Shown here: one piece after another, positions 28,824 through 37,494 of the stretch
Position numbering within the stretch: position 1 is the stretch's first letter
How the letters are laid out: every line of letters begins with the position of its first letter
NCBI GenBank assembly: GCA_016182615.1
Contig: JACPGF010000100.1
Coordinates: forward strand, 1-52,656
Reading direction: 5' to 3'
DNA length: 52,656 nt
Origin: Ignavibacteriales bacterium
GTDB taxonomy: Bacteria; Bacteroidota; Ignavibacteria; Ignavibacteriales; Ignavibacteriaceae
Notes under the pieces: generated by a model
The model's input: the letters and a program-made list of their open reading frames with translations, nothing else
Told to the model about the DNA's origin: nothing
Database searches by the model: none
Program-made: the position numbers and the translations under genes

Positions 28824-29235
28824 AGTTTTTGTGCTTTGAGGCTGAGTTGTTGTATCTTTTCATTTAATTTCCATGTATCCCCGTAAGCCAAAGGGCTTGT
28901 ATATCTGCAAATAATAGTTATCTTCTTCTTAATAGTGCTTTCTTTAGCTAAACGGTGCCTGACGGTTAAAAAAAAGGAATTTGTGGAATTTGCAGAGAAC
29001 CTGCTGTTAGTATTCCCGAAATAAACCTGCCGTATATAAATATGACCGATTTGTGTTCGTTAAAGACAAGTACCTGTTCAATTTGTGTGTTACGTAATTA
29101 AACATATTCCTGCATTTCTCCCATTCTACTGAGAGTGGCAAATTTCTATCCGGTTCGCCGCATTGGTATGTAAGGCGTATATGCGATACGTATTCTTTTT
29201 ATTGCTAAATCTAAATGTGTTTTCAGAGGAAAGCT

Positions 29236-32200
29236 ATGTATCGTCTTATCCGTTTTTTTGTATTTGCATTTTTTTTTACTGCAATTGCCCACGCGCAGGG
29301 CAATGCACTTGTTTTTAACGGGACAAGTAATTACGTCAGTGTTCCGAATTTTTCGTGGCCGGCCGGCGGCCCGGTAACGATTGAATTTTGGAACAGGGTC
29401 AATGCCGGTGAAATTCAGGCTTCTCTTGCATTTCGAATCGGTGATAGTTCCACTAGTAATATTGTTTCTGCCAGCGTCCCTTGGTCTGATAGAGTTATCT
29501 ATTGGGACTATGGTGCTAATTCAGGAAACGGGCGATTAACGGCGGGTTACAATTCTCAAGTGAACAGATGGGTACACATTGCATTGGTTTCTGAGGGAAA
29601 TTCAGGAAACTTCCGCGGTATTTATATTGATGGATTTCTTGCTGCCTCTTCGGCTTCCTCCGATGGGCCAGACATTCCTTTAACCGGTTTGCACATCGGA
29701 GGTTTGCCTTCAGTTGCCTACCACAAAGGAAGAATCGATGAATTCCGTGTATGGAACGTGGCTAGAACACAACAACAGATTCAAAGCACTTATCAAACAA
29801 CTTTAACAGGCACCGAAGCCGGATTGGTTGGATACTGGAAATTCGATGAAGGTTCTGGTAATACTTCGGCCGATGCCAGCGGTCACGGCAATACCGCCAC
29901 CCTCATTAATTCGCCCACATGGAGTTCCTCCGCTGCACCTTTGCGTATAACTCAGACAGGCAATATTGCATTTAATAACTCAACCGGTACACAGGCCGGT
30001 GTTAGCTGGACAAGCGGCAACGGAAATTACCGTGCTGTTTTTGTGCGGTCAGGTACAACCGGCAGTGTTGCGCCGGTAAACGGCACGACATATTCGGCAA
30101 ATGCAACATTTGGCTCGGGTTCACAGGTGGGTACATCGGGCTGGTATTGCGTTTACAATGGTGCGGGAAGCAGTGTTACCATCACTGGTCTGACAAGTGG
30201 CGCAGAATACCGTGTGGCGGTTTGCGAGTATTTCGGATCGGCAGGGTATGAATATTATATGAATGCAGCTGCTGCCGGTAATCCGGCAAATGCGCCTATT
30301 TATTACAGTTCTGCACCCGCTGTTTCTACTATTAGTCCTAATCTTAATGAAAACAATGTTATTACCAACCCGGCAATTAGCGCAACTTTTGATCAGATAA
30401 TGAATACCGGCACCTTAAACGCGCAGACCATTCTTGTTTATGGATCGGTTTCGGGCAAACACACCGGAACAATTGCTTTCAGTAATGCCGACAAAACATT
30501 TACATTTTCACCAGGTATTCCATTCAAGTATGGTGAAATCGTAAACGTAACACTGACAAATGCTATCCAAAACATCAATGGCACTGTGCTGCCAGCGGGA
30601 TATCACCTGCAGTTTACCGTTAAAGCAAAACTGGCACCTGCTTCTTTTACCCGGGTTTCGCAGGCAGGCACACATGTTTATCCCTCTGGCATTGTCGCGG
30701 CGGATTTTAATGGTGACGGTAATACCGATATTGCAACACCAAATCAGCCGTCTTTGGACGTATCAATTCTTTTAAACAATGGGAGCGGTGTGCTTACTGA
30801 AACCTCACGGCCTGTGCCGGGAAATCAGCCGGGTAAAATGATTAGCGGGGATTTTGATGGTAACGGAACGATCGATTTGGCTTTAACACTTTTAGGAGGG
30901 CAAGCAGGAACCGGACAAATTGGCATTCTTTCAAATAATGGGAGCGGTATATTCTCACTCCTCTCCACTTTACTCTTTGGTCTGGGCTCATCCGAATTGG
31001 CTGCGGGAGATTTTGATGGCGATGGCGATCTGGATATTGCCGTAACATATTATGCAATTAACGGGGTTTATATACTTATCAATAACGGAGCGGGAACCTT
31101 TTCTCTGGTCTCGACCGTTTTAGCAAACTATTCATCCGACAGGGCAATTGTTGCCGGTGATTTTAATCTGGATGGTACCATAGATCTTGCTCTCGGAGAC
31201 TATGACTACTACTCGGTAACAGTGCTTAGCAATAATGGATATGCCGGATTTACCCGTATAGATCCATCATCAGCGGGTACTTACCCTACCGTACTGAGCA
31301 TGGCAGACTTTAATGGAGACAGACTGCCGGATTTAGCCATAGCAAGAGACAACAATCAATCTATCTCCATCTTGTCAAACGCGGGCAACTTTAGCTTTCA
31401 GAACGGGTCGCCAATTTCTGCATCAAACCAGCCTCGCTCGCTTTCTTTTGCTGATTTTGACGGTGATGGAGCTTTGGACTTGATAGGGGGCGATAATTCA
31501 AATTCCTATAACCTTTTCAAGAACAACGGGCTGGGTACGTTTGCCTTGTTTTCATCCGGGCAGTTAGGATCTCAAAGCCCGGGATGGGTTACTTCAGCAG
31601 ATTTCAATAATGACGGCGCGATGGATTTTGCTTTGGCATCGTCGTTCACGGATAGTGTTCATATAATGGTTAATACTTTTACTCAGGCGGGTAATATTAC
31701 ATTTACAAATACTCAGGCGGCACAAACAACTATTAATTGGTCTAACGGTAACGGCAGCAGGCGCGCTGTTTTTGCCTCACGGAGTACTTCGGGAAGCCCG
31801 GTTCCGGTAAACAATACGACCTATACTGCGAATACTGTGTATGGTTCAGGAATGCAGATTGGCTCCACAGATTGGTATTGCGTTTATAATGGCACAGGTA
31901 CATCTGTTACGGTAACCGGCCTTGCTATTGAAGACAGCTCCCGTTTTGCAGTTTGCGAATATTTAGGTGCAAATGGAACGGAAACGTACTTTACCACACT
32001 AGGCACGAATAACCCTAAAAACCTTAAAACGGTAACAACACAGGCCGGGAACATAACATTCGCCAATACCGGTGCGGCACAAACAGACATTACATGGATA
32101 AACGGCAACGGCAGCTGGCGCGCTGTATTTGTTTCTCACAGTACTGTAGGAAGCCCGGTTCCGGTTAACAATATAACCTATACCGCAAATACTATGTTTG

Positions 32201-32454
32201 GTTCAGGGACACAGATCGGCTTAAGCGGCTGGTACTGCGTTTATAATGGAACGGGAATAACGGTATCGGTAACCGGTCTTGCGATAGGTGACAGTTCCCG
32301 TGTTGCTGTTTGTGATTACATGGGGACGGATGGCGCGGAAACATATTTTACAACAACTGGAACAAACAATCCTAAAAATGTAGGGACTATTACTACACAG
32401 GCCGGAAACATTGCATTTGCCAATACCGGTGCGGCCAAAACAGATATTACCTGA
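29236..32454 (+). CDS. giant secreted surface protein, N-terminal part (signal peptide, LamG, repeat, Big_5-like, FG-GAP/VCBS, tandem repeats), ending at in-frame TGA
   Basis: Start at 29236 with AGAGGAAAG upstream (track start 29215); LVFNGTSNYVSVPNFSWPAGGPVTIEFW; ADFNGDGNTDIATPN repeats. Confidence 0.88.
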   Translation: MYRLIRFFVFAFFFTAIAHAQGNALVFNGTSNYVSVPNFSWPAGGPVTIEFWNRVNAGEIQASLAFRIGDSSTSNIVSASVPWSDRVIYWDYGANSGNGRLTAGYNSQVNRWVHIALVSEGNSGNFRGIYIDGFLAASSASSDGPDIPLTGLHIGGLPSVAYHKGRIDEFRVWNVARTQQQIQSTYQTTLTGTEAGLVGYWKFDEGSGNTSADASGHGNTATLINSPTWSSSAAPLRITQTGNIAFNNSTGTQAGVSWTSGNGNYRAVFVRSGTTGSVAPVNGTTYSANATFGSGSQVGTSGWYCVYNGAGSSVTITGLTSGAEYRVAVCEYFGSAGYEYYMNAAAAGNPANAPIYYSSAPAVSTISPNLNENNVITNPAISATFDQIMNTGTLNAQTILVYGSVSGKHTGTIAFSNADKTFTFSPGIPFKYGEIVNVTLTNAIQNINGTVLPAGYHLQFTVKAKLAPASFTRVSQAGTHVYPSGIVAADFNGDGNTDIATPNQPSLDVSILLNNGSGVLTETSRPVPGNQPGKMISGDFDGNGTIDLALTLLGGQAGTGQIGILSNNGSGIFSLLSTLLFGLGSSELAAGDFDGDGDLDIAVTYYAINGVYILINNGAGTFSLVSTVLANYSSDRAIVAGDFNLDGTIDLALGDYDYYSVTVLSNNGYAGFTRIDPSSAGTYPTVLSMADFNGDRLPDLAIARDNNQSISILSNAGNFSFQNGSPISASNQPRSLSFADFDGDGALDLIGGDNSNSYNLFKNNGLGTFALFSSGQLGSQSPGWVTSADFNNDGAMDFALASSFTDSVHIMVNTFTQAGNITFTNTQAAQTTINWSNGNGSRRAVFASRSTSGSPVPVNNTTYTANTVYGSGMQIGSTDWYCVYNGTGTSVTVTGLAIEDSSRFAVCEYLGANGTETYFTTLGTNNPKNLKTVTTQAGNITFANTGAAQTDITWINGNGSWRAVFVSHSTVGSPVPVNNITYTANTMFGSGTQIGLSGWYCVYNGTGITVSVTGLAIGDSSRVAVCDYMGTDGAETYFTTTGTNNPKNVGTITTQAGNIAFANTGAAKTDIT

Positions 32455-34131
32455 CGCGGCACCACGGGAAGCCCGGTTCCGGTTAACAACACGACCTACA
32501 TCGCAGATACATTGTTTGGCTCCGGCTCGCAGATTGGCCAAAGCGGGTGGTACTGCGTTTACAATGGAACAGGAACAACGGTAACGGCAACCGGACTTGC
32601 AATTGGTGATAGTTCCCGTGTTGCTGTTTGCGAATACATGGGCACAAACGGGGCGGAAACTTTTTTTACTACACCGGCAGCGGATAACCCAAAAAACATA
32701 AAAACCATTACAACACAGGCCGGAAACATTGCATTTGCCAATACCGGTGCGGCCAAAACAGATATTACCTGGATAAACGGCAACGGCAGCAGGCGCGCGG
32801 TTTTCATCTCACGCGGCACCACGGGAAGCCCGGTTCCGGTTGACAACACGACATACACCGCGGATACGGTATTTGGCTCAGGCACTCAAATCGGCTCATC
32901 CGGTTGGTATTGCGTTTATAATGGAACAGGAACAACGGTTTCAGCAGCCGGATTAGCCATCGGCGACAGTTCCCGTGTTGCGGTTTGCGAATACATGGGC
33001 GCAAATGGCGCGGAAACATATTTCACTGCAACAGGTACAAATAACCCTAAAAACATAAAAACCATTACAACACAGGCCGGAAACATTGCATTTGCCAATA
33101 CCGGTGCGGCCAAAACAGATATTACCTGGATAAACGGAAACGGCAGCAGGCGCGCGGTTTTTGTTTTACACGGTACCACGGGAAGCCCTGCCCCGGTAAA
33201 CAACACAACATACACTGCCGATACGGTATTTGGCTCAGGCACTCAAATCGGCTCATCCGGTTGGTATTGCGTTTATAATGGAACAGGAACAACGGTAACG
33301 GCAACCGGACTTGCCATTGGTGACAGTTCCCGGGTTGCGGTTTGCGAATACATGGGCGCTAATGGTGCCGAGACGTTTTTTACTACAACGGAAGTGAATA
33401 ACCCAAAAAATGCCGGGACAATTGCAACACAGGCGGGAACCATAACATTTGCAAATACCGGTGCAGCGCAAACGGATATCAACTGGTCAAACGGTAACGG
33501 CAGCAGGCGTGCAGTTTTTGTCAATCATGGCACTTCAGGAAGTCCATTGCCGGTAAACAATATAACATATACGGCGGACACAGTATTTGGCTCAGGCACT
33601 CAGATTGGCTCCACCGGCTGGTATTGCGTCTATAATGGCACCGGGGTGTCTGTTATCGTAACGGGGCTTCCCATCGGTGACAGTTCACGCGTTGCGGTTT
33701 GTGAATATTCGGGCGCTGATGGTGCAGAAAAATTCTTTACGACGACTGGAACAAATAATCCCCAAAATGTGGGAACCATTGCATTACAAGCCAGTGGAAT
33801 AACATTCGCGAATACCGGTGTGGCTCAAACTGATATCAGCTGGTTAAACGGCAATGGCAGCAGGCGTGCAGTTTTTGTTGCAAACAGTGCCACGGGAAGC
33901 CCATTACCGGTAAACAACATAACATACACAGCCAGTACTGCTTTTAGTTCGGGCACACAGATTGGTTCAAGCGGCTGGTATTGCGTTTATAATGGAACGG
34001 GGACTACCGTTGAAGTAACGGGGCTTACGGTTGGACAAACCTACAGAGCATCTGTGGCTGAGTATATTGGCGCAGATGGAGCTGAACAATATTTTACAAC
34101 AACCGGACAAAACAACCCTGCAAATGCACCG
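31672..34131 (+). repeat. tandem array of seven 357-bp (119-aa) units, third unit 318 bp
   Basis: Equivalent points at 31672, 32029, 32386, 32704, 33061, 33418, 33775, 34132: spacing 357 except 318 for 32386-32704. Confidence 0.93.
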
Positions 34132-37100
34132 GCAATAAACATCCCTACTCCTGTCGGAAATGCCATTAGTTTTATGAGACTTACGTCGTATCTTAACATA
34201 CCTTCTTTTTCATGGGCTGCAGGAGGACCTATAACGATTGAGTTTTGGAATTTTGTTACCAATGTCGATTTGCAGGATTTACCTGCTGTTAAAATCGGGA
34301 ACGGCACATTGGGAAATACAGTAGCCGCGTATGTACCCTGGCTTGATCGAAATTTGTATTGGGATTATGGTGACCCTAATAACTCAGGCCGCATTGCAGC
34401 TAATTACCAATCATACATGGATCAATGGACACATGTTGCATTAGTCTCCGGGGGTAACGCAGGTAGTTTCCGTGGTATATACTTAAATGGTGTTCTTGTT
34501 GCCGCGATCGGGGCTTCTGACGGTCCGGATATTGCATTGACCAATTTGAAAATCGGTGGAGCAAATAATGCTTATTCTCATACTGGCAACATGGACGATT
34601 TCAGGATTTGGAATACGGTCCGCTCACAGGCAGAAATACAGGGCAGTATGAGCACAACACTTGCAGGCACCGAGCCGGGTTTAATGGGATACTGGCGGTT
34701 TGACGAAGGTGCCGGATTAATTGCTAACGATGCCACGCAGCATAATAATTCCGGCACTTTAACTAATAATGCTAATTGGGTTGTACCCTCAACAGCGCCG
34801 ATTAATGCAGGCATGAATCAGGCATTTAATGTAACTTTTACGGATGTCAATTGGAGCAGCACAGCTATTGCATGGAAGAATGGAAATGGGAGCGCACGGT
34901 CTGTTTTCATGTTTCATGGCAATGAAGGGACACCGGTGCCCGAAATAAATACCGTGTATACAGCAGACAGCAGTTTTGGCAGCGGAACGCAAATAGGCAG
35001 CAGCGGGTGGTATTGTATTTATAATGGTGCCGGTGAAAGAACAACAGTTCATGGATTATTACCGGGTGAAATATACCGCGTTGCAGTTTGCGAGTATTTA
35101 GTTTCCGGACCAAACAAGCAGTTTTACACCAGTAACGCTACTAAAAATCCTGCAAATGTTTCAACAGTAAGCAAGGTGCAGGCAAGCGCCATAATGTATT
35201 CAAATGTGCAGTCAACTCATCTTAATATTAGTTGGACCAGGGGCAACGGTACAAGAAGCGCGGTTTTTGTTCAACAGGGAATTAACGGCTCGGCTTTACC
35301 GGTTTATTTAACAACGTATAATGCTGGCAGCATTTTTGGAACAGGAACCCAAATTGGCACTTCGGGATGGTATTGCGTCTATAACGGAACGGGGACCAAT
35401 GCCAGCATCTCCGGATTAACCCCCGGACAGATATACCGTTCGGCTGTTATGGAATATTTGGGTGACAACGGCCGGGAATTTTATAATACCGATAGCGCCC
35501 TGAATAATCCGGCAAACTCACCGTTGCTATTTACGGTAATAAACAAGTATCCCGCACCAAATGCACAAAGCATCGCGCCCAACACCAATATCTCGGCAAC
35601 TCTTAACAAAGCGTTGAACCCTGATTCGCTCAATTCCGGGACTTTCGTTGTGTACGGATCCCTTTCCGGCAGGCACGACGGCAATATCGCCTTGGATATA
35701 AGCGGTACCTCATTTACTTTTACCCCCGCTCACAACTTTATAAAAGGCGAGTTAGTCACTGTCTCGCTCACATCATCAGTTAAAAGTGCCGAAGGCGGCT
35801 ATTTAAGCAATGGGCAGCATTGGATGTTTTCTATTAAGCCGGAAACAACAACCGCCGATTTTTCAACGGCAGCAGCCGTTTCGACAACAATCCAAAGTAC
35901 ATCCGGATGTTCAGGCGATTTTAACACGGATGGACTCGTCGATTTCGCCACGGTGAGTTTTTTCAACAATAGTATCTCAATATTTTTAAATGGCGGGAAC
36001 GGCGGCTTCACGGAAACGGTTATAGCCGACCCTTACCCGGCTCCAGCCGGGATTGTGGCAGCCGATTTGAATAATGATGGCAAGTTGGATTTGGCAGTTT
36101 CCGGGTTAAACAATTATCTTACCGTTGCCTGGATGAACAATGGCAGCGGCGTTTTTAGCAGCGGCTCGGTAAACAACACAGGAGGAAACTGTTATGGCAT
36201 CGCAGCAGGCGACATCAGCGGTGATGGCATATCCGATATTATTGTCGGCAACTCGAATAATAAAACATTATCAATTCTTATCAATAACGGCAACGGTACT
36301 TTTACCACATCGGTACAGGCAACATCCGGCGACCCGCGGGGACTCGCTATTTCCGACGTGAACGCGGATGGAAATTTGGACGTTATCGCGACAAACTTCA
36401 GCGATGGAGCTGGAACTATAAACAATACCCTGGATGTTTTTATCAATTCCGGAAATGGCAGTTTAACATTATCAGGCACTCCATACACGGGCAGCGGGCC
36501 GTTTTCCGTGGCAACCGGCGATTTTAATAATGACGGTTCAATTGACCTTGCAACGGCTAATTATGGTGCGGCAAGTATTTCAATCCTGCTGAACAACGGC
36601 TCGGGAACATTTACCCAATCTTCAGCAGTTTCAACAGGCAGTTTTCCGTATCATATTGCATCCGCGGATTTTAACGGTGATGGAGCCATGGATCTTATGG
36701 CAACAAATTACGGATCATCAACGGTTTCGGTTTTTACAAACAACGGCAGCGGTGTATTCCTGCAAAATTTTTCACTAGCTGCCGGGGCGTCTCCGTTTTT
36801 TTCGCTGCCGGTTGATTACAATAATGACGGCATAATAGACATTGCCGCGTTCAGTGGAAATAGTAATGAAATTTTCTTTTACCCGAATTTATCCGCGCCA
36901 TTACCTGTTGAACTGGTTTCATTTACAGCGTCTGCACGCGGCAGAAGTTTGCTGCTTGCATGGGAAACCGCAACAGAAGTTAACAACTCGGGATTTGTAA
37001 TAGAACATCTGGGCGGAATAGACAGCAGCTATTTTACAACCGGCGGTATCAAATGGAAGACGATTGGTTTTGTTGCAGGCGCCGGGAACTCGAATGTAAA

Positions 37101-37494
37101 AAAAGAATACGCTTACACCGATGTTAATCCGGTCAACGGGAAAAATTATTACCGCTTAAAGCAAATTGATAACAACGGCTCATTTTCATACTCGGACACC
37201 ATCGAGGCGGTTTATGGTAATGCACCACGCGAATTTTTATTAACACAGAATTATCCCAACCCCTTTAACCCCTCAACGGTTATCACTTTCACCGTTCCGG
37301 CCAATGGCCGTGCAACCTTGAAAATATATAATACCTTAGGACAGCTTGTGACTGTTTTATTGGATGGGGAAGTGGAAGCGGGTACGTATAATTATGTTCA
37401 GTTCAATGCCGTTAATCTTGCCACCGGGCTGTATTTTTCTCGTCTGGAATGGAACGGCAAAGTGCAATTAAAGAAAATGTTGTTTATCAAATAG
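32455..37494 (+). pseudogene. in-frame continuation of the giant surface protein gene after the TGA, ending in a T9SS C-terminal sorting domain
   Basis: Same frame as 29236-32454, no other stop; track ORF uses an internal TTG; C-term FLLTQNYPNPFNPSTVITFTVPANGRATLKIYNTLGQLV...LKKMLFIK. Confidence 0.75.

Follow-up and report, generated by a model that had tools for sequence, protein, structure and literature searches.

A 39-nt shortfall and an in-frame TGA in the FN3-like repeat array of a giant T9SS-type surface protein gene from an Ignavibacteriales short-read draft genome

Type A cargo proteins of the T9SS combine a signal peptide, adhesin-like beta-rich modules and a sorting domain, and T9SS cargo needs prior Sec export. 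Surface proteins built from tandem FN3-like repeats are described from Bacteroidota and Ignavibacteriales, and ordinary nonsense-broken genes or pseudogenes carry one stop in a frame whose remainder is intact. Repeats are also the places where short-read assemblies break; with the MEGAHIT k-list of 21, 29, 39, 59, 79, 99, 119 and 141, repeat-broken contigs terminate in maxK overlaps (PMC10914622). The window, that is, the whole stretch of 52,656 nt that was analysed, corresponds to bases 1-52656 of contig C253; the assembly is a short-read draft of 489 contigs, 89.8% complete, of which ~1.5 Mb was sampled in stretches. Base 52657 starts a run of 60 Ns, and the end of the window is a scaffold gap inside this contig; many contigs hold N gaps of variable length, with runs of 3 to 98 in contigs other than this one.

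The gene at 29236-37494 is an ordinary gene for a giant modular T9SS-exported surface protein of an uncultured Ignavibacteriales-type bacterium. The ORF tool starts the frame at ATG 29215; the likely start is ATG 29236, which has an AGGA core upstream. The modules follow the order signal peptide, LamG, FN3-like unit, Big_5, FG-GAP repeats, array, the same modules again and sorting domain (Table 1). The Pfam matches of the upstream part are Laminin_G_3, Big_5 and FG-GAP_3 repeats, and those of the downstream part are FG-GAP_3, Big_5, a weak fn3 (E 1.8e-5) and Por_Secre_tail, the last of which scores above the cut-off with both PF18962 and TIGR04183, as T9SS cargo does. Taken from 29215 to 37494, the gene is internally duplicated, with LamG, FN3-like unit, Big_5 and FG-GAP set flanking the seven-unit array on both sides; 29296-29949 and 29953-31659 match residues 567-785 (50%) and 909-1473 (39%) of the downstream ORF, respectively.

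Table 1. Features of the giant surface protein gene (window positions) and nonsense codons in five other genes of the same genome (label and position).
Feature	Position	Strand	Basis or remark
Apparent Sec signal peptide MYRLIRFFVFAFFFTAIAHA	29236..29295	+	read from the sequence without a signal-peptide program
Laminin_G_3 (ConA-like) domain	29317..29784	+	Pfam PF13385, E 1.2e-19
Outlying FN3-like unit, ~50% identity to array units	29941..30294	+	
Big_5 Ig-like domain	30310..30618	+	PF13205, E 6.8e-12
FG-GAP/VCBS-type repeats, limits approximate	30640..31660	+	PF13517, six stretches
Array of seven 119-aa FN3-like units, unit 3 short by 39 nt	31672..34131	+	
Unit 3, 318 nt vs 357; lacks the conserved post-Trp segment of all other array units	32386..32703	+	
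In-frame TGA created by junction 32453/32454	32452..32454	+	
Second LamG-like domain, 50% identical to the first	34153..34809	+	29296-29949 vs downstream-ORF residues 567-785
Two further FN3-like units	34795..35520	+	
Second Big_5 domain	35533..35832	+	PF13205, E 1.5e-11
Second FG-GAP repeat set, limits approximate	35850..36900	+	PF13517, six stretches
T9SS type A C-terminal sorting domain (Por_Secre_tail)	37252..37479	+	PF18962; TIGR04183
SIR2_2 protein, L162:5633-9244	L162:6305		in-frame TGA inside domain
Peptidase_S9/BD-FAE	L210:13896		TAA
Glyco_transf_4	L193:4162		TGA
Glyco_transf_9	L237:3770		TAG
OstA_2	L217:3138		TAG

A previous sequence-only reading proposed that the array is broken by an exact loss of 39 nt whose junction itself makes a TGA, and that everything after the stop remains in frame to 37494, sorting domain included. 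This reading of the sequence was right, because the array units are spaced by 357, 318, 357, 357, 357 and 357 nt, the stop lies on the junction, and the 1,679 codons that follow it hold no other stop. The TGA is codon 1080 of the frame starting at 29215, and the truncated product has ~1,072 aa if translation starts at ATG 29236. Two details of that reading need amendment. The truncated product was said to lack its export signal, and it does lack the C-terminal T9SS sorting domain but retains the apparent Sec signal peptide, so that the two signals do not stand on one polypeptide as the gene is assembled, the TGA lying between them. The downstream ORF was said to have only an internal TTG start; TTG 32512 is indeed its first start, but ATGs 32638 and 32995 are also in frame.

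To the left of the junction, 59 nt (32395-32453) recur unchanged in units 4 and 5; to its right, 31 nt (32454-32484) recur unchanged in unit 4. The breakpoints have no bases in common and show no microhomology, and neither a hairpin nor a direct repeat that could have caused a deletion was found there. Units 3, 4 and 5 (31672-33417) are built as mosaics in which stretches of 89, 77 and 59 nt are identical, and this pattern points to gene conversion or unequal crossover among the units.

The 119-aa unit was modelled as a beta sandwich (AlphaFold2, pLDDT 81), and the top Foldseek matches of the model are FN3 domains (Tencon, monobodies), with weak E-values of which the best is 2.3e-3; the units are thus predicted to have the FN3 beta-sandwich fold. 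The 13 missing codons correspond to the conserved post-Trp segment (NGNGSRRAVF) and the third predicted strand, residues 30-37, and according to the model the deletion takes out a core beta-strand. Because a conserved core strand is lost, the deletion is damage and not a designed off-position, and readthrough of the stop would still leave a unit 3 unable to fold in the normal way. A profile search found 198 homologous units in 81 translated frames, 80 of them besides this gene, and a stop is present in unit 3 alone, with none in the 197 other units found by the profile. Loci of Bacteroidota and Ignavibacteriales commonly carry such units, and the best relative within the family, contig 249 of genome G032 (CAIMOS010000249.1, an Ignavibacteriales MAG), is a single open frame of 2,389 aa. 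Near-identical DNA from the same species or a close strain was sought in 58 relatives, which gave only short matches of 67-80%, while a scan of a contig database returned homologs and no strain-level copy, and a scan of viral contigs returned one distant homolog. Since the dN/dS of the units before and after the break is ~0.10-0.17, the array was under purifying selection. With no second stop downstream, no more than ~78 neutral substitutions (1.6% of sites) can have accumulated since the break, at 95%, which indicates that the break is either very young or not real.

We infer, as the somewhat more probable explanation, that the 39-nt shortfall of unit 3 is an assembly or consensus error, and we favour it over a genuine recent null allele. 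The central FN3-like array would have been misassembled or wrongly called in the short-read draft, one unit would have lost 39 nt where the identical stretches of units 3, 4 and 5 meet, the junction would read TGA by chance, and the gene in the living cell would probably be a single open frame. The flanks of the junction, of which the 59-nt one occurs three times and the 31-nt one twice, are repeats long enough to confuse assembly, and junctions flanked by identical repeats are the textbook point of failure of short-read assembly. A full-length unit 3 resembling unit 4 would share with it ~129 exact nt, which exceeds the longest exact repeat found away from contig ends in the ~1.4 Mb sampled (104 nt). 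In the same sample, the longest exact repeats of all, 141 and 119 nt, all lie at a contig terminus, and both lengths belong to the MEGAHIT k-list (PMC10914622), a match from which we infer that the assembler was MEGAHIT; literature searches on its default k-list, differently worded, gave nothing direct. The 59-nt run also equals one k of the list, which for one of eight values has a chance of ~6% and counts as weak evidence for an assembly error. On the other side, no k of the list matches the 31-nt run, the junction has no Ns or ambiguity, a k of 141 could in principle resolve a repeat of 129 nt, and a de Bruijn assembler needs some read or gap-filler to create a new junction.

The assembly is error-prone elsewhere. 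In five ordinary genes a Pfam domain is interrupted by one nonsense codon (Table 1), an uncalibrated count from the sampled sequence of this genome; the SIR2_2-domain protein among them is likely a defence gene. SprA, the single-copy translocon of the T9SS, is found in the genome but, as assembled, is split by a frameshift near C313:4025 (L291-L293) into two frames, 1503 and 852 aa long, whereas in nearly all of 30 relatives it is one frame of ~2,250-2,420 aa. The exceptions are G048 (2125 plus 217), G015 (1,472 aa, perhaps cut by the contig end), G011 (fragments) and G006 (none found). The genome has a very large cargo set: the T9SS sorting domain is matched at least 150 times, counting the matches that were scored. 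As these need an intact SprA, the break in it is more easily understood as error than as biology: a true loss of SprA is unlikely, and a sequence error in it is likely.

A genuine loss-of-function allele is the main alternative, and we regard it as somewhat less probable than an error. It supposes a recent illegitimate deletion of 39 nt, lacking microhomology, during or after the homogenisation of units 3-5; as part of the same tentative reading, the cell would be left with a periplasmic fragment of ~1,072 aa or no product at all, and decay of the gene would have just begun. The clean junction agrees with this, exactly this stretch has recombined recently, as the mosaic identity of units 3, 4 and 5 shows, and the bound on neutral substitutions given above fits a young break. 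The many other T9SS cargo genes mean that the loss of one could be tolerated, and a real loss of SprA would also account for the decay of cargo genes, which would then be free to degenerate. Against it stands the fact that other genes of the assembly are broken as well, including that single-copy translocon, which suggests sequence error, and that the site is precisely where repeat assembly is known to fail.

Of the three options that the sequence-only reading had listed, the null allele and the assembly error are therefore kept, the latter favoured, and the ON/OFF surface protein falls for want of a mechanism of recurrence. In that third option, the unit with the stop is the OFF allele and recombination among near-identical units turns the gene ON; a crossover in the tract common to units 3 and 4 would in fact remove the stop along with a 318-nt repeat and keep the frame. 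Such a crossover is one-way, however, and costs a unit, the deletion wrecks a core strand of the domain, and none of the 197 other homologous units found bears a stop. Phase variation calls for a recurring and reversible change, and the junction has no microhomology, slippage tract or invertible segment, nor is there a donor copy or cassette elsewhere in the genome. Since nothing lets the loss recur, no donor copy exists and unit recombination only removes the stop in one direction, we regard a switch as very improbable and the break as almost certainly not a regulated ON/OFF device; literature searches on phase variation through in-frame losses of this kind gave nothing direct. Marginally less credence still goes to the version in which this giant T9SS adhesin-like protein has a real OFF allele that persists at some frequency in the population and is resolved when near-identical FN3-like units recombine; if it were true, array length and expression would change together.

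That the TGA is read through or recoded to give a full-length product deserves hardly any credence: it falls where the conserved Trp codon is expected, and a C comes after it, which is known as a leaky context, but TGA is a normal stop in this genome, because 105 of the 512 long frames in the sample end in TGA and prfB, encoding RF2, is present with 517 bits, and a product read through would still lack 13 core residues in unit 3. Just as far-fetched is the notion of two independent genes, the downstream ORF having its own start, since TTG 32512 and ATG 32638, although in frame, open in the middle of a beta-sandwich unit with no signal peptide for the prior Sec export that T9SS cargo needs, and no SD-like core was found upstream of TTG 32512, ATG 32638 or ATG 32995, all of which lie inside FN3-like units.

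The finding comes down to a broken gene of an ordinary kind within a short-read draft. Its main value is as a caution: a stop in a tandem-repeat surface gene of such a draft calls for a look at the reads before it is taken for a switch or a pseudogene. If the deletion is real, the organism tolerates being without one of its many T9SS cargo proteins. Compared with T9SS type A cargo (PF18962/TIGR04183), the gene has the same sorting domain, apparent signal peptide and adhesin-like beta-rich modules, and differs in that the two signals sit on separate frames as assembled. It resembles the FN3-like tandem-repeat surface proteins of Bacteroidota and Ignavibacteriales in its 119-aa units, whose predicted fold matches FN3 at weak E-values, but it matches Pfam fn3 only weakly and one of its units lacks the third strand. 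As in an ordinary nonsense-broken gene or pseudogene, there is one stop and the rest of the frame is intact, whereas the stop arises here from an in-frame loss of 39 nt and not from a point change. With the short-read repeat breakage described for maxK contig-end overlaps (PMC10914622), the draft shares its contig-end repeats of 141/119 nt and the locus shares a junction between repeat-identical stretches, the difference being that here the bases are continuous and the small loss lies inside a repeat and not at a contig end.
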